Program-made: the position numbers and the translations under genes
Part shown: positions 936 to 10,721 of the stretch, one piece after another
Position numbering within the stretch: position 1 is the stretch's first letter
Layout of the letters: the number at the start of each line of letters is the position of its first letter
Source: an uncultured Bryobacteraceae bacterium
Lineage (GTDB): Bacteria > Acidobacteriota > Terriglobia > Bryobacterales > Bryobacteraceae
DNA: 64,000 nt
Reading direction: 5' to 3'
Assembly: GCA_938003835.1 (NCBI GenBank)
Contig: CALKXJ010000013.1
Span: forward strand, 62,001 to 126,000
Notes under the pieces: generated by a model
Database searches by the model: none
The model's input: only the letters and a program-made list of their open reading frames with translations
What the model was told of the DNA's origin: nothing

Positions 936-3431
936 TTAGTTCCGCCGTCGAACGAGCTCGACGAGCCCACGCCACTTGCGGTGGATGAGCTCGGCAAGGT
1001 TAAGCAACACGGCAAGGCCGAGCAGCCCCGGCCAGAGGCGCAGTGTGGCGGCCACCGCGCGCCCGCCCGAATCGAAGACCTGGCGCGCCGGAGGCTCGAG
1101 CCGCCCGCCGGTGAATTCCGCCACCTGGCGGAGCAGCGTTTCGTTGGAGCCGTAATCGTTGAGCTCCTGCTCCTGCCGGTAGAAACCCAGCTCCGGAAAA
1201 ACGGGCGAGACCTCGAGCGGCCGTATGCGGAACAGGCCCTGTTCTTCGCTGATCGGCGCCCGGCCGCGCCAGGCGCCCGCGGCGACCTTGGAGAGGCTCA
1301 GGGGCCGGCGGAAGCCGTTCGGCCCGAGGATGAAGATGTCGGGCACCTCGGCCGGTTCGGCGATGTGCCGCGCCAGACGGTAGTCGGCGACGATCTCCTG
1401 GTTGGCGCTGTCGAAGCCGACATACGCCTCCGCCGCCTGAGCGCGGGGCAGCAGGTCTCGCATCAGATTGATCCAGAACTTGTCGAAGCCCTGCCAGCCC
1501 ACCCAGTCCGCCGCCCAGCGGCTCTTGGCGTCGGAGGTGAACACGGCGGCCCGGCCGAGCCCATACTGCCAGCGCGCCAGCAGGGGATCCTCCCGGTCGG
1601 CACGCATCAGCATCTCGGCCGTCGGCTTCATCTCGAAACGGACGTAGCCTTTGAGCGCCGGCGCCGAGTCCATGCCCACGCCTTCGAAGATCTCGCTTCG
1701 CTTCAGCACGACAGGCCGGATGGGCTTCTCGACGGCGGTCGAGCCGGTGTGTTCCAGGACGTCGCGCAGCAGCACCTGCTCGAGCCCGGCCGGATCGGAA
1801 ACCAGGTAGGCCTTGCCGTTGGCCAGCGTGGCCACGCGCTCCAGGTACTGTTTGTTGACGTCCTGACCCAGACCGACCGTCGAGATCGTCACCCGCTGGC
1901 GGGCCGCGTCCTGAGCCAGCGCAAGGCTGTCGCCCTCTTCCGAGATCCCGTCGGTGAGCAGCACGATGTGCTTGAAGGTCGCCTTCACCGGTAGGATCCG
2001 GCGGTAGGCCTCGGCCAGGGCGGGCGCAATTTGCGTGCCCCCGTCGGCGGTGATGCCGGCAATCAGCCGTTTAATCAGGTTGCGGTCCTCGGCCAGCCGG
2101 ATCGGCACCGCCCACTGGAAGGAGTTGTCGAAGATCAGCACGCCGACCCGGTCCACCGGCCGCAGGTTCTCCACCACGTTGATCGCGGCCTGGCGCGCCA
2201 GTTGCATCTTGCGCCCTTCCATGGAGGAGGACTTGTCGATGATCAGCACCAGGCAGGTGCCCTCGGGCGACTCCGGCGGCGCCAGGCGGGCCGGCAAGGC
2301 ATCCTCGAGCGGGTCGGGCAAATGCTTGTACTCCTCGAGGTAGATGTTCTTCTCGCCGGCGATCACCAGCAGCCCCCCACCCTGGCGCACGTACGTCTCG
2401 AGAGCGCGCTTGCGTTCGAGCGGCATCGCCTTGAGATCGAGGTTATTGAGAACAACGATCTCGAACCTGGAGAGATCCTCCGGCCAGTCGCCGGCGAGTG
2501 GTTCCACTTCGAAGCGGCCCGCCTCGAGCAGGCCGAGAAAATGGCGCTCGGTACCGGGCGGATCCTCGGAGACATACAGCACCCGGGGCCGGCGCAGTAC
2601 GAGCGCCTGCGCGAAGCGGACTTCCCCCAGTTCAGCCGAGCGGATGCTGCCCGCGAGGTCGAACGCGCCGCTTTCGCTCAAACTCGCGTACGCCCGGATG
2701 TGATTGAGGCCCGGTTCCAGGACCACCTGGCTCGAGCCCAGCAGCTTTCCCTCGGCGCGGATTTCCACTGTGCCTTCGGCGCGCCGCGGCGACACCAGGG
2801 TGAGATCGATGGGAAAGCGTTCACCGGTGAAGGCCGCTGCGGGAAAGCTCACCGTCTCCAGACGCAGCTCCGGGCGGCGGCGGCCGGCCAGCGGATAGGT
2901 GTCCACCGGAATCCCCTGCTCACGCGCTTGCCAGACGGCGCGGACGATGCTGCCGCGGTTTTCCCGGCCGTCGGAGATGAGCACGATCCGGGGCACCAGC
3001 CCGGCGGGCATGGCGGCGATCGCCTCGAGAAGCGCTGCCTCCAGATTGGTGCTCCGGCCCTCCTCACCCGTCGTATGCCGGAGCTTCCAGCCGGCGGCGT
3101 TCTCTTCGGGCATCGGCAGCCGCGTCTGGCGCGCGAACGGGACCACGCGCATCCAATGCCGGCCGCGGGCGCGTTCGAGCTCGGCCACCAGGCGGGAGGC
3201 GCGCTCGAGGTCCTCCTCGGAGACGCTCGCAGAGGTGTCGACCAGCGCCGCCACCGCCATCTTGGTTTCCCAGACGCCCAGGCGCGGCTCGCAGAGCGCG
3301 AGGAGGATAGCGGCGATCGCGCAGATCTTAAGGATGAGTCCGGTGCGGCGCGCCAGGCGGGACCACTCCCAGATCGCCCAGGCGATCAGGGGCAAAAGCA
3401 ACAGCAGGGGCCACCACCGCACGAGCGTCAT
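936..3431 (-). CDS. Membrane protein with two VWA domains and a class I GATase-like segment
   Basis: The 831-residue protein opens with two hydrophobic segments (about residues 8-24 and 31-47). A VWA domain with the MIDAS-like motif DTSAS follows. A middle part (about 290-370) with RFEIVVLNNLDL and YVRQGGGLLVIAG resembles the glutamine-amidotransferase-like fold found in large bacterial VWA proteins. A second VWA domain with DKSSSM starts near residue 400. A last hydrophobic helix lies near the C-terminus. Its ATG overlaps the end of the BatA-like gene by 4 bp, so the two are translationally coupled. The family is usually linked to MoxR/DUF58 chaperone-like systems acting on envelope proteins. 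No enzyme activity can be assigned. Confidence 0.8.
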   Translation of the reverse strand: MTLVRWWPLLLLLPLIAWAIWEWSRLARRTGLILKICAIAAILLALCEPRLGVWETKMAVAALVDTSASVSEEDLERASRLVAELERARGRHWMRVVPFARQTRLPMPEENAAGWKLRHTTGEEGRSTNLEAALLEAIAAMPAGLVPRIVLISDGRENRGSIVRAVWQAREQGIPVDTYPLAGRRRPELRLETVSFPAAAFTGERFPIDLTLVSPRRAEGTVEIRAEGKLLGSSQVVLEPGLNHIRAYASLSESGAFDLAGSIRSAELGEVRFAQALVLRRPRVLYVSEDPPGTERHFLGLLEAGRFEVEPLAGDWPEDLSRFEIVVLNNLDLKAMPLERKRALETYVRQGGGLLVIAGEKNIYLEEYKHLPDPLEDALPARLAPPESPEGTCLVLIIDKSSSMEGRKMQLARQAAINVVENLRPVDRVGVLIFDNSFQWAVPIRLAEDRNLIKRLIAGITADGGTQIAPALAEAYRRILPVKATFKHIVLLTDGISEEGDSLALAQDAARQRVTISTVGLGQDVNKQYLERVATLANGKAYLVSDPAGLEQVLLRDVLEHTGSTAVEKPIRPVVLKRSEIFEGVGMDSAPALKGYVRFEMKPTAEMLMRADREDPLLARWQYGLGRAAVFTSDAKSRWAADWVGWQGFDKFWINLMRDLLPRAQAAEAYVGFDSANQEIVADYRLARHIAEPAEVPDIFILGPNGFRRPLSLSKVAAGAWRGRAPISEEQGLFRIRPLEVSPVFPELGFYRQEQELNDYGSNETLLRQVAEFTGGRLEPPARQVFDSGGRAVAATLRLWPGLLGLAVLLNLAELIHRKWRGLVELVRRRN

Positions 3432-5368
3432 GAGGCCCTCCGCAAGGATCGCGCCGCGAGGGCACGCATGCGGCGTTGCCAGCCGTGGATCCAGCTCACG
3501 GCGGAGCGGGCCGGCTCAGCCGCACGACCCCGCGCGCGGCCGAAGCGAAGCCACTCCACCACCACCAGCAGAGCCGCCAGCGCCGCCAGGGGCCACCACA
3601 GCTCCCGGAACGGCGCCGGATAGATCCGCGGAGCGGGCAGCCCGTTCAGCGCCGAGGCCGGCGGATCCCACTTTCGGGTGGCCACCTCGGGCAGGTTCAT
3701 CGAGTAGACGACCTCGCGGTCTCGGGTCACGACGCGCACCAGGCCGGGAGCGCCGGAATAGAATCGCAGGCGGTCGCCCTCCAAGGTCGCAGGCAGGGTC
3801 GCTCCCGTTTCCGAAAGGACCTTGATGGAGTTCGGATCGGAGCCCTCGTCGAGCGCCAGTTCCACGGTTCCCACGCTGCCCGCATTGAGTTCCCAGCGCC
3901 GGAAAACCGCCGACTCGATCCAGCGCAAAATGTTCGCCGCAAGCAGCGGCGCCGCGAGCTGGTAACGCGCCGCGCCGTCCATCGGATCGAAACCGAGCAC
4001 GACGGTCTTGCGCAGGCTCCTGGCGTCGCGCGCGGCGAGGATCACCGGGCCGGCATCGACCGATGCCACCACGTCGAAACCATCGATCGGCGCGAGCACG
4101 CGAGCCGAACGGAGCTGGAACTCCTGGGTATTGAGACCTGCTGCGATGGGGTGGCTCTGATTCCAGGCGCGGACCACGGCGGAGGTGACCTTGCCGCTCA
4201 CGGGCACGGGGCCGCCCGCCGGCGGCTCGATCCACAGCGTGTGCGCCTCGAGCGCGCCGGGCGGCAGGCAACGATCCAGCACGACCAAATCCGCCGGTTC
4301 TTCGGAAACTTGTCCCGGCTTCCGGTACACGGCTTCGACGAACGGGCTGGCGTCGAAGACAGCTCGGAGCCGCTCGGGCCGGTCCGAGTACACGAGTACT
4401 TTCAAGGATCGCTGCGCCGGGAGCTCGACCCGGGCCCGGTCATCGGCGGGAAACCCATCACCCGGTTCCAGCGCAAGCTCCACCGTGGCCGCGGCGCGAG
4501 TTCTTAAGGGGAGGGTGAGCTCCGCTTCGGCGCCGGCGTCCAGAGCGAGCGATCGAAATCCGGCGGGGGATCCAGCAAGCTGCGCGCGGAGCTCCACGCG
4601 GCGCGCCTTGACGCCGTAGTTGTGCACCGAAACGTACATCTCCCACAGGTCCGCCTCAGTCGGCGAGTGCCGCAGCCCGATTTTGCGGATGCCGGCGTTT
4701 TCGATCCGGTTCTCCACCAGGAGCAGGCGCAGGCGGGGAATTTCGACCGCAGTTGTGGGGTCGTCCGCGGTGCGGGCGCAGCCGGCGTAGACGATCTCAC
4801 CCGGCCGGCGCGCATGGAGTCTCTGCACCCGGCGGGCGAAATCGAACGCCTGCTCCAGATGAAGCGCTCCTGCGCCAGGTTGGGACTCCTCGATGGCGCG
4901 CCTCAGCAGTTTGCGGTCGGTCTCGAACGCCGTCACCGGCGTAGCAAGCGCCTCGGCTCGCACCAGGATCACGCGGTCCTCGGCGGGCAGGGCGTCCAGA
5001 TAGCCGAGAGCGAGCTCCCGCGCCCGGTCCATGAGCGTTCCGGAGTCGGTGCGTGCCGCCATCCAGGCCGAGGTGTCCAGAAGGAGCACATGGTCTTCCG
5101 CCCGGTCCTCCCGACTGCCCCAGCGCACTTGTGCCGCCGCGAGTAGCAGCAGCGCCAGGGCCAGAAGCTGGAGCACGAGCGACAGCGGCTCGCGGATGCG
5201 CCGCCGCCGGCGGATCTCGGTCAGGCGCGCTGCCTGGCTCCAGAAACGCAACGAAGCAACCACCTGCCGCCGCCGGGCACGATCGAGCAGGTAAAGCGCC
5301 GTGATGAGGGCGGCCGTGACGCCGAACAACGCCATCAGCTCGCCCAAGCTCAGATTGACCAGATGCAT
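3428..5368 (-). CDS. BatA-type N-terminal membrane domain plus VWA-like protein
   Basis: The 646-residue protein starts with the two-helix BatA signature: a helix at about residues 8-27, an arginine-rich loop, and a helix at about 58-80. A VWA-like domain follows, but its first metal motif reads DTSAW, lacking the last Ser of DxSxS, so metal binding may be weak or lost. The middle is beta-rich. A C-terminal helix (WWPLAALAALLVVVEW) is followed by a basic tail. The gene abuts the DUF58 gene with no gap and overlaps the next VWA gene by 4 bp. The arrangement matches Bat/MoxR-associated operons. A role in envelope protein maturation or stress is family inference only. Confidence 0.8.
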   Translation of the reverse strand: MHLVNLSLGELMALFGVTAALITALYLLDRARRRQVVASLRFWSQAARLTEIRRRRRIREPLSLVLQLLALALLLLAAAQVRWGSREDRAEDHVLLLDTSAWMAARTDSGTLMDRARELALGYLDALPAEDRVILVRAEALATPVTAFETDRKLLRRAIEESQPGAGALHLEQAFDFARRVQRLHARRPGEIVYAGCARTADDPTTAVEIPRLRLLLVENRIENAGIRKIGLRHSPTEADLWEMYVSVHNYGVKARRVELRAQLAGSPAGFRSLALDAGAEAELTLPLRTRAAATVELALEPGDGFPADDRARVELPAQRSLKVLVYSDRPERLRAVFDASPFVEAVYRKPGQVSEEPADLVVLDRCLPPGALEAHTLWIEPPAGGPVPVSGKVTSAVVRAWNQSHPIAAGLNTQEFQLRSARVLAPIDGFDVVASVDAGPVILAARDARSLRKTVVLGFDPMDGAARYQLAAPLLAANILRWIESAVFRRWELNAGSVGTVELALDEGSDPNSIKVLSETGATLPATLEGDRLRFYSGAPGLVRVVTRDREVVYSMNLPEVATRKWDPPASALNGLPAPRIYPAPFRELWWPLAALAALLVVVEWLRFGRARGRAAEPARSAVSWIHGWQRRMRALAARSLRRAS

Positions 5369-6253
5369 TCAGCCCAGCGCTCCGACGTAAGAGAGCGGCC
5401 CGAAGATGGCCTCTTCGACCGGCGTGCTGGTGGACAGCCCGACGTAGCGCCCGCCGCTGGCGAGCGCTACCCGCTGAAGGTCGCGCGCATAACTCGCGAA
5501 GGCCTCGGCATAGCGCCGGCGGGCCTCGCCGTCGAAGTCGATATGCAGGACGGCTCCCGTTTCGGCATCCACCAGTTCGAGCTCTCCGCTGGCGGACGGC
5601 TCGCGGTCCTCTTCGTCCCAGATCTGGACCAGGAACAGCTCGTGGCCGAAATCGGCCAGATACTGAAGCGGGCGCTCGCTGCCGCCGTCATCGAAAAAGT
5701 CGGAGATGACGATGAGCAGACCGCGCTGGAGGAAACGGGTGCTGAACTGACGAACCACGGCGAGATAGTCGGTGCGGCCCTGAGGCTCGAGCGCGCTCAG
5801 GTAATCCACCACGGGCGCGAAGCGGTGGCGGCCGCCCCAGCAGTGAAACGGGTCGCCCAGGTGGTCCGAGAACGGCAGCACGGAAATGGCGTCCAGCCGC
5901 ACGAGCCCCACGTAGCAGAGCGCCGCCGCCAGCCGGCGCGCGTAGTCGAACTTCGTGCCGGCCCCGGTGGCCATCGAGCGGCTGACGTCGAGCAGCAACC
6001 GCACGGGGATGCGCGGCTCGACGTGGAACATCTTCATGAACAGCTTCTCGAAACGCAGGTAGGCCCGCCAGTTGACCGCCCGGAGGTCGTCGCCGTAGTG
6101 GAAATGCCGGTGGTCGAGGAATTCCAGACCCGGGCCCGCCTGCCGCGACGGATTGTGCCCTCCCACCAGCCCCGGGAAGGACTTCTGCCAGCGGATAGCC
6201 AGCCGTTCGAGCTTTTCGAGGAAGCCTCGCTCAATGAATGGCTTCTGCGCCAA
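5369..6253 (-). CDS. DUF58 domain protein (MoxR/Bat cluster)
   Basis: DUF58 proteins carry a VWA-like fold and usually partner MoxR AAA+ ATPases. The hallmark HFHYGDDLRAVNWRAYLRF near residues 43-61 is clear, followed by LLLDVSRSM, a VWA-like DxSxS motif. I chose the TTG start at 6251-6253 because GGA lies 6 nt upstream and the protein then begins just before the conserved FLEKLERLAIRW stretch. The frame is open further upstream, but that extension runs into the 3' end of the oxidoreductase gene and is low-complexity. The length of 294 residues is normal for the family. It is the first of three tightly packed genes; no moxR lies between it and the upstream oxidoreductase, which is where one would expect it. 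Confidence 0.85.
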   Translation of the reverse strand: MAQKPFIERGFLEKLERLAIRWQKSFPGLVGGHNPSRQAGPGLEFLDHRHFHYGDDLRAVNWRAYLRFEKLFMKMFHVEPRIPVRLLLDVSRSMATGAGTKFDYARRLAAALCYVGLVRLDAISVLPFSDHLGDPFHCWGGRHRFAPVVDYLSALEPQGRTDYLAVVRQFSTRFLQRGLLIVISDFFDDGGSERPLQYLADFGHELFLVQIWDEEDREPSASGELELVDAETGAVLHIDFDGEARRRYAEAFASYARDLQRVALASGGRYVGLSTSTPVEEAIFGPLSYVGALG

Positions 6254-6303
6254 CGCCGTTCCTTTTTTCAGTATAGCGGCGCTGTCCGGCAGGGCCTTGC
6301 CAC

Positions 6304-9300
6304 TTACGGGCGCATGAGCACGTAGTAGAAGGCCACGCGGTCTTCCCCGGGCTCGAGATAATCGCCGAGAGCATGCAGCAGAGCCGCCGGCATCCGGCGC
6401 GAAACCCACCTGCCGATCAGCATCCCCTCGTCGACGGCGCGGATCTCGTCGTGGAAGGTCGTGAAATCGTCCAGGCGGACGAACTCCTCGGTGAAGCTTA
6501 CATCCATCTCCCCACGGAGCAGCCCGAACTGATAGCGGCCCTCGATCCTTCCGCCGGAGGGAGTGAAGCGCAGGCGGAACAGTACGGGATTGGCCTGGTT
6601 GAGCAGGCTGACGTTAGGGCGGGTCAGCCAGACGAGATTGCCTTGCCACTCGCCCTCAAGCTGCGAAGCCGTGGGGATGCGGACGCGGGGATCGGAAAAG
6701 ATCCGGTGATGATCCTCGACCGACATCTTCTCGAAGGGGTAATTATTGCGCTCCATGACGAAGGTGGCGAACTCGACTCCGTGGGGAAACTCGCCAAGGT
6801 GCATGACGCCGATGGCGCTGTCTGCGTCGATCACCTTGATGGTGTCGTAAACGATTCGGTAGGGTTGGTTCCGGTAGCGAAGCAACAGGATGCGGTCGCC
6901 GCCGCGGAAGTAGCGGCGGGCGTCGTCTGGATAATCGACTTCGCGGACTTCCGGGTCGCCGGGCAGAAAATCGAGCTCGTAGTTGACCACGTGGCCGCGC
7001 GCCAGGCCGTTTTCGATCCGGTCAAACCGCTTCCAGAAGCTACCGCCGGCGAAGATCGCCCCGGCGCCCACCTCCTCACCGGTCAGGCCTGCCCCTCGCA
7101 GGCGCTCCTCCCAACCGAGCAACGTGTCGCGGGCGAAGGAGCCCTTCCAAAAAGAGTCCCGGAAGATCCGCTTCCGCTCGAAGTCGATGCGCACCTGGCC
7201 GGTATTGATCAGGCTTTCGAGCGGAAGCGTCGGCGTGTCGCGCAGCAGGGCCTGTAGCTCCGCGGTTGGCACTGTGCTGAAGTAATCCGGCGTCTCGGCG
7301 CCACGCAGCACGTCGGCGCGCACGTCCTCCTGAAGAGCCCCGGGGCCGGGCGCCAGCGGGTCATACTCGGTGAGGACGAAATGGGCCGTGAAGGCCAGGA
7401 AGCGCATTTGGGCCTGGAGCTTGATCAACGGGTCGTCGGTGCCTGTCACCCGGAACGAGGTTAGAAAGTCGGCCAGGTTCCGCGCAGCGGGCAGATCCTC
7501 GAAGGTGCGGAACTCAAGATAGGCCGTGCCGCGCTCCTCTCGGCCCGCCGGGGTCTCTTCCCAAAGCCGGGCGTAGAGCGTCGTGTAGTCCTCGAGAAGC
7601 TCGTTGACGGCGCGCAGGCCGCCCGAGCTATCGCGCTGAAGGTACTTGGTGCCCTCGAGCGTGTAGCGGCGGCCGGGCGGAGTCTGGAACTCCAGCCGGT
7701 AGCGCATCTCGGCCTCGCGGGTCGCCTCGTTGATTCTTAAGTAGTTGAACCGGCTTCGCCGCTCGTCGATGGAGAAGCTCACCGGGCCGGCCCCTTCGAA
7801 GCTGCCGAAGCGAATCGTTCCCTCCAGTTGCGCCTCGTGTTCGGCCCCTTCGATGAAATCGTTGACGTCGGCAATCCGCATGCGGACGTGGAAGCTGAGA
7901 TCCGCGGCATCCGTGGCGCGGCCTTCCCAGGCCGGGCGGCCTGAGGCGTGGAACCAGCCTGCCATCGTTTCCTCGAAGGTCAAGCCCACACCTTCGGGGA
8001 GACGGGTCTCCATCAGGGGCCGGAGCAGCCGGTTCACCGGAACGTCACGGTCTTTGACCCGACAGAGCAGGTAGTAGAAGCCGAAGCGGCGGCCTTGTTC
8101 ACTCTCCTCGACATGGAACAGGCCGAGCGAGGCTGCCGGAAAGACGCCGGCGGTGCCGGCCGGGGCCGGAGCGACCCACTTGCCCACCATCAGGTCCGCC
8201 GTTAGGCGCCGGATCTCGTCGTGAAACGGGGTGAAGTCGTGAAGCTGGAAGTGATTGGCGGTGAAGCGGGGCGTCACCAGGCCTTCGATCAGCCCCAGCA
8301 GTTGATAGCGACTCTTAAGGCGTCCGTCGGGGGTGAGCTCGAACTGGAGATACGCCAGGCTCACGGCGTGGTTGGCGTTCGAGATCACATCCATGCGCCA
8401 GGCGCCGCTGAGCTCGGCCTTCTCGGGCCGCGCCCCGATGTCCCAGAGGCGGCGATGATCCTCCACCGTCATGGCCTCGAAGCCGTATTCGCGCACCATC
8501 GGGAAGGTGAACAGCCGCCGCCCGTGTGGAAACACCCCCAGATAGACGCGGCCGACGAGCAGGTTGTCCTGAATGACCTTGAAGACGTCGTAGAAGCCCT
8601 GCCAGGGCGGATCGGTGTAGCGCAGCAGGATGTAGCGGCCGGGATCCAGGTCTCCGGTTCGCTCGGCGAGCTCGACCTCTTCGACGATGTTGCGCGCCTG
8701 GATGCGGTCGTCGGCGTCGCTGGTGATGCCGCCGAGGCGCCCATCCTGGGGGAGGAAGCGCTTCTTGAAGCCGGCGAAGAGGGCGGCCGACATCGCGTTC
8801 AGCACGTGGCCCTTCGGGAAGAACCCTTTCCAGAAGGCGTCGTTGCGGATCCCGCCGGAGGCCAGGTCGATGTCGCGCCGCCCGCTGTTGAGCATCCATT
8901 CGACCGGCTTGGTCACGCTGCGGCGGAATAGCCGGTCAAGCTCCTCTTCGGTCCAGCCCGCCACCGCCCGCGCGTCGATCCGGGCCAGGCTGAAGCTTGC
9001 GGGCGGCGCCGGGTAGGCTTCCCCCTGAAGTTCGCGAACTTTGCGCTCGGCGATGCGCTCGGCAAGCGCGGCAATCGTCAAGAACGGGTTGACTCCGAGC
9101 GAGGTGGGGATGATCGAGCCGTCGGCGACGAAGAGCCCTTTATGGACGCTGCCGTCGGAGGAGTAGACCCGCCCGAACTCATCGACGGCGCCCTGCCCCG
9201 CGTCGTCGCCCATCGGGCAGCCGCCGAGCGGGTGCGCCGTAATCAAGTGCCGGAGGTTGAAGATGGTCCACAGCGGATTGGCGATGAAGCTCGCGCCCTG

Positions 9301-10680
9301 CGCCCTCGCGTGCCTCCGCAACTCGTCGTTGATGCGTGCGAAAGCGGACTGCCGGCCGGCATCCTTCCAGACCACCTCAGCGCGTCCGTCCGGATCCCAC
9401 CACGGGCGTTGAAACTCGATGATGCCGCGCGCGTCGTCGAAGCCCATGCACAGATAGAGCATGGTGTGATTGAGCGCGCCGTCGGGGTGATGAGGCCTGA
9501 AGGGGTCGAAGTCGCGCAGCAGGCGGCGCTGCTCTTCGCGCTCGTCGCCGGTGTCGGAATCCTCGCCGCGCAGCGCGCCAAAGGCGAGCTTGGCGGCGCT
9601 TACGTAGGCGCTGGGGAAGGAGAGATCCTCGATGGCGAAGCGCCCCTCGAGCGGGCCGCCCCGGTTGTACTGTAGCACGCCGACGATCGTCGGACCGGGC
9701 GCCAGGGCCGCACCGGGACTGCCCGGGTGGTTACCGAAACCCAAGACGTTGGTCCGGTAATCGCCGTTATAGGCGAGGCCGAAGAAATCGCCGTTTCCGC
9801 TGAAGGTGGTGCCGACGGCGGGCGCCAGCGCCAGCCCGGCCGCCTGAGAGCGTAACAAAATCTCCGTACTGTGGATGGCGCCCGCCGCGAGGATGATATT
9901 TTCCGCTTCCAGCCGGAACGTTTCGGTGCGACCCAAGCCGAGCAGGCGCCGCCCGTGTAGGCGCCAGCCGCCGCTCGCCAACTTCTCCACCCAGAGCACC
10001 TCGGCTTCGGTGAAGAGGTCCGCGCCGCCACGAGCGGCCATCGGCAGATAATTCATTGCCAGCGTATTCTTCGCGCCGACGTTGCAGCCGGTGACGCAAT
10101 CGCCGCAGTCGATGCAGGGCTTCTGGCGCACCCCGTAAGGGTTGACTCCGTCAAGCGCGAAGTTCACCGCGATGTCTAGCGGCCGGGCGTCGAGCCCGAT
10201 CTGGGCCCCGCGACGGGCGAGCGCCTGCACCTTCAACAGCTGCGCGGCGCGCGGATGCGGACCGGCGCCGAGCACCTGCCGCGCCCGCTCGAAATAAGGC
10301 CGCAGCACGCCGAGCTTCACTCCGGCCGGCCAGCCTGGCTTTTCGAAGGTCTCCTCATCCGGGACGATCGCGACATTGGCGTTCACCAGCGAGGTGCCGC
10401 CGAGGCCGGAGCCCTGAATCACCGAAATATCGCGGTAGGTGAGCAGCTCGTAGAGCCCATAAGGATTGGCGGCGCTGCGTTGCGCGGCCACCACCTCTTC
10501 GAGCCGGTCGGGAAATCGACCCACTTCCCATTCCCGCCCGCGCTCGAGCAGGCACACCGTTGGTTTCGGATCGATCGGCGCATTGGCCAGGCGGGCGGCT
10601 GTGATCGCTCCCCCGTAGCCCGAGCCCACCACAATGAAGTCGTAGCGCGCACGGCGCGCCCCCCAGTCTTTTGACAGCAT
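6304..10680 (-). CDS. GMC-type FAD oxidoreductase (cholesterol-oxidase-like) with duplicated C-terminal module
   Basis: At 1458 residues this is about 2.5 times the usual GMC length. Residues 14-24 give the FAD-binding VVGSGYGG motif. A Cys-rich CIDCGDCVTGC segment (about 188-198) and the C-terminal GMC motifs AHPLGGCPMG and ADGSIIPTSLGVNP complete an enzyme like the cholesterol-oxidase branch by about residue 545. The rest holds two diverged copies of a ~310-residue unit (about 575-890 and 1150-1458), sharing FWKG, LLRY, FPHG, VEDH and FTPFHDEIR/FTTFHDEIR. Between them is a separate beta-rich region with a SFSIDERRSRFNYLRI stretch. I used the ATG at 10678-10680, which has a GGGGGG run 6-7 nt upstream, rather than the ATG 24 bp earlier. 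The substrate (sterol or other alcohol) is unknown. Confidence 0.8.
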   Translation of the reverse strand: MLSKDWGARRARYDFIVVGSGYGGAITAARLANAPIDPKPTVCLLERGREWEVGRFPDRLEEVVAAQRSAANPYGLYELLTYRDISVIQGSGLGGTSLVNANVAIVPDEETFEKPGWPAGVKLGVLRPYFERARQVLGAGPHPRAAQLLKVQALARRGAQIGLDARPLDIAVNFALDGVNPYGVRQKPCIDCGDCVTGCNVGAKNTLAMNYLPMAARGGADLFTEAEVLWVEKLASGGWRLHGRRLLGLGRTETFRLEAENIILAAGAIHSTEILLRSQAAGLALAPAVGTTFSGNGDFFGLAYNGDYRTNVLGFGNHPGSPGAALAPGPTIVGVLQYNRGGPLEGRFAIEDLSFPSAYVSAAKLAFGALRGEDSDTGDEREEQRRLLRDFDPFRPHHPDGALNHTMLYLCMGFDDARGIIEFQRPWWDPDGRAEVVWKDAGRQSAFARINDELRRHARAQGASFIANPLWTIFNLRHLITAHPLGGCPMGDDAGQGAVDEFGRVYSSDGSVHKGLFVADGSIIPTSLGVNPFLTIAALAERIAERKVRELQGEAYPAPPASFSLARIDARAVAGWTEEELDRLFRRSVTKPVEWMLNSGRRDIDLASGGIRNDAFWKGFFPKGHVLNAMSAALFAGFKKRFLPQDGRLGGITSDADDRIQARNIVEEVELAERTGDLDPGRYILLRYTDPPWQGFYDVFKVIQDNLLVGRVYLGVFPHGRRLFTFPMVREYGFEAMTVEDHRRLWDIGARPEKAELSGAWRMDVISNANHAVSLAYLQFELTPDGRLKSRYQLLGLIEGLVTPRFTANHFQLHDFTPFHDEIRRLTADLMVGKWVAPAPAGTAGVFPAASLGLFHVEESEQGRRFGFYYLLCRVKDRDVPVNRLLRPLMETRLPEGVGLTFEETMAGWFHASGRPAWEGRATDAADLSFHVRMRIADVNDFIEGAEHEAQLEGTIRFGSFEGAGPVSFSIDERRSRFNYLRINEATREAEMRYRLEFQTPPGRRYTLEGTKYLQRDSSGGLRAVNELLEDYTTLYARLWEETPAGREERGTAYLEFRTFEDLPAARNLADFLTSFRVTGTDDPLIKLQAQMRFLAFTAHFVLTEYDPLAPGPGALQEDVRADVLRGAETPDYFSTVPTAELQALLRDTPTLPLESLINTGQVRIDFERKRIFRDSFWKGSFARDTLLGWEERLRGAGLTGEEVGAGAIFAGGSFWKRFDRIENGLARGHVVNYELDFLPGDPEVREVDYPDDARRYFRGGDRILLLRYRNQPYRIVYDTIKVIDADSAIGVMHLGEFPHGVEFATFVMERNNYPFEKMSVEDHHRIFSDPRVRIPTASQLEGEWQGNLVWLTRPNVSLLNQANPVLFRLRFTPSGGRIEGRYQFGLLRGEMDVSFTEEFVRLDDFTTFHDEIRAVDEGMLIGRWVSRRMPAALLHALGDYLEPGEDRVAFYYVLMRP

Positions 10681-10721
10681 CCCGATTCCCCCCTCGCTGT
10701 ACAAGCATACTTGATTTTCGG

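Follow-up and report, generated by a model that had tools for sequence, protein, structure and literature searches.

A GMC oxidoreductase of an uncultured Bryobacteraceae bacterium carrying a duplicated module most likely related to GXWXG/DUF4334 barrels

Lipocalins are characterized by an eight-stranded barrel that encloses a ligand cavity. Lipocalin-like β-barrels are usually ligand binders, and the sequence L-x-G-x-W occurs in such folds. Cholesterol oxidases (1coy, 1b4v, 4u2l), whose FAD-binding and C-terminal GMC domains carry the HPLGG and GVNPF sequences and a catalytic His/Asn pair, are the closest solved relatives of the catalytic part of the protein that we describe here; such enzymes use oxygen to oxidize 3β-hydroxysterols. 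A second point of reference is the catalytic subunit of the Burkholderia cepacia FAD glucose dehydrogenase (FAD-GDH), in which the 3Fe-4S ligands are Cys212, Cys218 and Cys222, spaced as C-x5-C-x3-C; Fe-S flavoproteins require a docking acceptor (PMC6719666). Our literature search found no paper on the module described below, nor on fusions of GMC domains with hydrolases.

The window, by which we mean the whole 64,000-nt stretch of contig CALKXJ010000013.1 that was analysed, contains a minus-strand ORF at 6304-10704, which comprises 1466 codons when counted from a TTG. We place the start at the ATG at 10680, which is conserved in orthologs as ML..W..R..YD and agrees with the initial annotation, and this gives a protein of 1458 aa. 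Residue numbers used here run from the upstream TTG, and ATG-based numbers are smaller by 8. The features of the gene are collected in Table 1. No signal peptide was evident by eye, and the protein is probably cytoplasmic. Its neighbours in the window, a peptidase-M1-like gene on one side and DUF58/VWA genes on the other, are not common to the ortholog loci. The row directly downstream (936-6409) consists of VWA/glutamine-amidotransferase-like, BatA/VWA and DUF58 genes, and in the ORF list the DUF58 frame and the end of the GMC gene overlap.

Table 1. Features of the GMC-module gene in the window; motif positions in M1 and M2 are given as M1/M2
Feature	Residues	Coordinates	Strand	Evidence or remark
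Whole gene, GMC - M1 - middle β-domain - M2		6304..10680	-	same layout in L003-L011
GMC FAD oxidoreductase domain	21-557	9034..10644	-	Pfam PF00732/PF05199; phmmer to 1coy
CX2CX2CX3C, likely Fe-S site	Cys197/200/203/207	10084..10116	-	Cys197/203/207 in 32/32 GMC domains, Cys200 in 31/32
IEDL, candidate acid/base Glu359	358-361	9622..9633	-	30/32 GMC domains have Glu here, the other 2 Gln
HPLGG, catalytic His	His491	9220..9234	-	His in 32/32 GMC domains; aligns with HPLGG of cholesterol oxidase
GVNP, catalytic Asn	Asn539	9085..9096	-	Asn in 32/32 GMC domains; aligns with GVNPF of cholesterol oxidase
Module M1	585-885	8050..8952	-	M2 paralog; AlphaFold2 model
M1 barrel a, GXWXG/DUF4334-like	585-759	8428..8952	-	hhalign, pooled a barrels; Foldseek 4mve, whole M1 model
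M1 barrel b, opens with L-x-G-x-W	760-885	8050..8427	-	hhalign, pooled b barrels; nine model strands
Middle β-domain	905-1115	7360..7992	-	homology to Azospirillum fusion linker; HMM matches in four fusions
Module M2	1145-1465	6310..7272	-	M1 paralog; in hydrolase slot of GMC-X-hydrolase fusions
M2 barrel a		6679-7272	-	
M2 barrel b		6310-6678	-	
FWKG	624/1185			
LLRY	693/1274			
FPHG	725/1306			
VEDH	747/1329			
DFT(P/T)FHDEIR	823/1413			

An N-terminal GMC oxidoreductase had been proposed in an initial annotation of this DNA, and the Pfam searches agreed, with 49.4 bits for GMC_oxred_N (cut-off 23) and 54.2 bits for GMC_oxred_C (cut-off 24.6). The phmmer match to cholesterol oxidase 1coy had an E of 1.8e-20; the NCBIfam cholesterol oxidase model NF058674 gave 173 bits and missed its cut-off of 850. 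Members of the GMC superfamily have a FAD-binding GxGxxG sequence and a catalytic His/Asn or His/His pair; the former is present as GSGYGG at residues 27-32, the latter as His491 and Asn539. Glu359 is the putative equivalent of cholesterol oxidase Glu361. The near-invariant CX2CX2CX3C motif, which is also found in plasmid-borne GMC-α/β hydrolase fusions, contains the C-x5-C-x3-C spacing of FAD-GDH in the positions of Cys197, Cys203 and Cys207, and we strongly predict from this motif an Fe-S cluster at Cys197-207.

When the protein was compared with itself, M1 and M2 were the only pair of similar segments. Their local alignment (588-882 with 1149-1465) scored 358, whereas the best of 500 shuffles reached 58, and profile-profile comparison of the orthologous M1s with the orthologous M2s gave a probability of 100 and an E of 3.7e-44 over 296 columns. 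All 5 motifs that the initial annotation had named as shared were located in both copies, at matching spacing. Judged from these sequence comparisons, M1 and M2 are true paralogs that arose by internal duplication, as had been supposed. The duplication is old, since in a tree the M1s and the M2s form 2 separate clades, each with 100/100 support. The elements WKG, LLxY, YDxxK, TFxMxR, DH and GxW are near-invariant in M1, M2 and free-standing copies, and the near-invariant charged residues of the module are Asp706, Lys709, Arg738, Asp749, His750 and Arg832. It might be argued that M2 is a dispensable remnant of this duplication with no role of its own, as many orthologs are without it. Yet conservation is no lower in M2 than in M1 (identities to the window copy across orthologs are 60-73% for M2 and 48-72% for M1), it constitutes a fully supported clade by itself, and an apparently intact separate M2-type gene is present in each of 2 other loci described below (L083 and L094). 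We regard passive retention of M2 as very improbable.

The initial annotation was correct in counting 2 copies of a module of ~310 residues, but each copy appears to consist of 2 tandem lipocalin-like barrels, and the domain that lies between the copies had been overlooked. This middle domain was 28% identical (E 6e-12) to the linker of an Azospirillum GMC-X-hydrolase fusion, and its HMM matched 4 such fusions; by homology, it corresponds to the linker found in GMC-X-α/β-hydrolase fusions. The predicted structure (pLDDT 76.8) is mostly β with a C-terminal helix, and a fold search with it gave weak matches only, none below an E of 0.001. Plasmid-borne GMC-middle-α/β hydrolase fusions were found in Azospirillum, Leptospira, Persicobacter and Rhizobium. 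M2 occupies the position of the α/β hydrolase in these sibling proteins, and the window protein had no Abhydrolase match.

Neither the modules nor the middle domain matched any Pfam model above cut-off, and searches with the module of Pfam, NCBIfam and PDB sequences returned nothing above threshold, in accord with the earlier remark that the module is not a recognizable one. Below those thresholds, however, a remote kinship could be detected for both barrels. An AlphaFold2 model of M1 from 20 module sequences (pLDDT 81.5, pTM 0.78) has its strands in 2 sets of nine to ten each, in the order of 2 successive β-barrels with a boundary near residue 760, the second of which starts with L-x-G-x-W. 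In a Foldseek search of the PDB with this model, the DUF3598 protein 2o62 ranked first and the GXWXG/DUF4334 protein 4mve second (probability 1.00, target TM 0.55, rmsd 5.1); lipocalin matches had high probability and low TM, and the query TM for the two-barrel model was at most 0.28. We identify 4mve as a GXWXG/DUF4334 protein because a hand-written family consensus matched it with an E of 1.4e-23 and because both Pfam domains are present in a plasmid protein that was retrieved with the sequence of 4mve; the consensus probe was used only to place 4mve and to fetch family members. In hhalign comparisons of 47 modules with a ten-sequence GXWXG/DUF4334 alignment, which were accompanied by 60 block-shuffled controls, barrel a reached a probability of 80 (E 1.4e-5, nulls 0/60) and barrel b a probability of 88 (E 3.5e-6, nulls 0/60). 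These values of 80-88% were reached only with the full 47-module set, as subsets gave 3-57% and 10-24 module rows with the family alignment gave 3-26%; the module profile against the single 4mve sequence, at a probability of 2-3, was uninformative. When 13 modules were run through hmmscan with Pfam matches accepted up to an E of 10, DUF4334 appeared for 4 members and GXWXG for 2, besides one stray match, and the best E values, 0.022 and 0.086, missed the gathering scores of PF14231/PF14232. The module is most likely a tandem of 2 remote GXWXG/DUF4334-like barrels, such that one polypeptide would most likely hold 4 of them in total. A second and older duplication, which would have produced barrels a and b within the module, is likely, yet is unproven because the direct similarity of a to b is weak (probability 10, nulls 0/60). 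Higher a-versus-b scores were discarded, as they came from overlapping segment ends. Pfam searches for GXWXG and DUF4334, which covered the genome that contains the window and 149 others from the phylum, found no true member of either family. Among proteins of the GXWXG/DUF4334 group from elsewhere, a 549-aa Limimaricola protein (L031, 1909-3558) has the unit fused to an N-terminus that by eye resembles a metallo-β-lactamase, and its gene adjoins one for an acyl-CoA dehydrogenase.

Relatives were sought by means of peptide patterns from close relatives, applied to 84,980 species, and with phylum-limited profile searches, and within this searched set they were found in Acidobacteriota only. The module was present in 19/61 genomes of the organism's family and in 6/396 across the phylum, and plasmids yielded none. 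Full-length orthologs with the 4 domains are present in the Bryobacteraceae, the Solibacteraceae and further Acidobacteriota, while other genomes encode GMC-M1-middle proteins of 1103-1201 aa that lack M2; on the GMC tree, the three- and four-domain forms switch at least 6 times. In one genome (L087, 2766-7032), the four-domain gene is split over several overlapping ORFs, which suggests frameshifts or assembly errors. Free-standing copies, which the initial annotation had proposed to seek, do exist. Those of genomes G125 and G325 group with the M1 clade, and that of G367 groups, on a long branch, with the M2 clade. The G125 copy (L019) is divergent to a GMC gene, and the G325 copy (L082) has no GMC gene within the 20 kb read around it. 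In G367 (L083, 253-6202), 5 separate genes lie side by side and encode an aldehyde dehydrogenase, the middle domain, an M2-type module, a GMC protein and an α/β hydrolase, a row that is the unlinked counterpart of the fusions. Genome G552 encodes a three-domain protein without M2. A free M2-type ORF (L094, 11128-12084) lies on a different contig of this genome, where it adjoins aldehyde dehydrogenase and FAA hydrolase genes; the pairing of the two is tentative, as the listed contamination of the genome is 6%. The gene neighbours of the orthologs are mostly not conserved, and therefore indicate no pathway. Three orthologs have an upstream FAD_binding_4/ALO-type oxidase gene (L009, 2102-3454; L078, 6106-7587; L075, 11599-13156), which the window copy does not have.

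The modules are fused to GMC domains in 26 sampled proteins and stand as separate genes beside GMC genes in L019 and L083, and on these grounds a joint function is indicated, with the barrels probably being working partners of the flavin enzyme. Our preferred and tentative reading, to which we assign a probability of about 0.4, is that the protein is a flavin dehydrogenase with an Fe-S cluster, that it acts on a hydrophobic alcohol and that its barrels hold or transfer the substrate or product; substrate class, Fe-S cluster and ligand binding are all inferred. The cholesterol-oxidase-like flavoprotein would convert the alcohol to a ketone or aldehyde, as is suggested by the top solved relatives and the invariant His/Asn pair. 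Electrons would be routed through the cluster at Cys197-207, probably not straight to oxygen, since the cysteines are spaced as in a GMC protein with a proven 3Fe-4S site. The C-terminal barrel pairs would retain the hydrophobic substrate or product or pass it on, a role proposed because the model shows 2 β-barrels and Foldseek matched them to lipocalin-like proteins (2o62, 4mve); M1 would be the module that accompanies the GMC and middle domains more constantly, and M2 a detachable second station. Lipid or sterol binding by the module, which the initial annotation had mentioned, is plausible from the predicted lipocalin-like fold together with the cholesterol-oxidase-like catalytic part. However, the near-invariant charged residues are as compatible with a role in catalysis or at an interface as with binding, and the preferred reading is weakened by these residues, by the low Foldseek TM, by the unconserved neighbours and by the free module in L082 with no GMC gene nearby.

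Possibly, the modules are themselves enzymes (e.g. an isomerase, hydratase or lyase) for the step after GMC oxidation, with M2 in place of the α/β hydrolase. The presence of M2 in the hydrolase slot behind the same middle domain, the near-invariance of some twelve residues with polar or charged side chains in both paralogs and in all contexts, and the aldehyde dehydrogenase genes next to the free M2-type genes in L083 and L094 all point in this direction. However, the modules have no known catalytic motif, we know of no demonstrated activity for GXWXG, DUF4334 or DUF3598, and the coexistence of hydrolase and module in L083 shows that M2 is not a simple hydrolase replacement, so that an enzymatic role is, to us, possible but doubtful. 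That the tandem barrels represent a new enzymatic domain family, which would replace the hydrolase of the sibling fusions and couple, in one polypeptide, the GMC oxidation of a hydrophobic substrate to a further chemical step, is unlikely; if true, it would provide the first function for the GXWXG/DUF4334 group. Ligand binding being usual in lipocalin-like barrels, and the same barrel motifs being retained in free-standing copies, we also consider it improbable that the barrels are structural only, i.e. that they bind no ligand and serve in oligomerization or in docking to a partner such as an electron acceptor, like the hitchhiker subunit of FAD-GDH. The repeated changes between three- and four-domain forms, by which M2 appears dispensable, would nevertheless accord with a structural role, as would the need of Fe-S flavoproteins for a docking acceptor (PMC6719666).

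The enzyme is of a known type, to which an accessory domain family is added that is new and remotely akin to a pair of domains whose function is blank; on present evidence this is not a new kind of system. An undescribed domain family is thereby seen in 3 natural contexts (as a tandem fusion, as a single fusion, and free beside a partner), and a function-blank group is linked to a tractable redox enzyme. As some relatives encode the GMC domain, module, middle domain and hydrolase as separate neighbouring genes, the parts can be expressed and tested individually.

Compared with the described systems, the window protein has the domains and active-site sequences of cholesterol oxidases, but these are enzymes of ~500 aa without C-terminal barrels, and the aligned region of 1coy is without the Cys4 motif. 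It shares with FAD-GDH (6a2u) the GMC scaffold, the Fe-S ligand spacing and the His/Asn pair (PMC6719666), but has the extra Cys200 and belongs to a different superfamily branch; FAD-GDH requires separate hitchhiker and cytochrome subunits. The GMC-middle-hydrolase fusions (WP_149201188.1 of Azospirillum, WP_002741297.1 of Leptospira) are alike in their GMC domains (36-41% identical), Cys4 motif and homologous middle domain, yet have a hydrolase where the window protein has M2 and have no M1 between the GMC and middle domains. Both barrels resemble GXWXG (PF14231)/DUF4334 (PF14232) proteins in profile, and the module model matches 4mve (Tcur_1030) in Foldseek; members of that group (L030-L038), however, are free proteins of 163-181 aa with one GXWXG-DUF4334 unit, whereas the modules have 2 barrels, lack a strict GxWxG and fall below the Pfam cut-offs. 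The DUF3598/calycin protein 2o62, the top Foldseek match, has a lipocalin-like β-barrel architecture such as is predicted for the module, at 12% identity, a TM of 0.22-0.26 and with no sequence-level link to the module.
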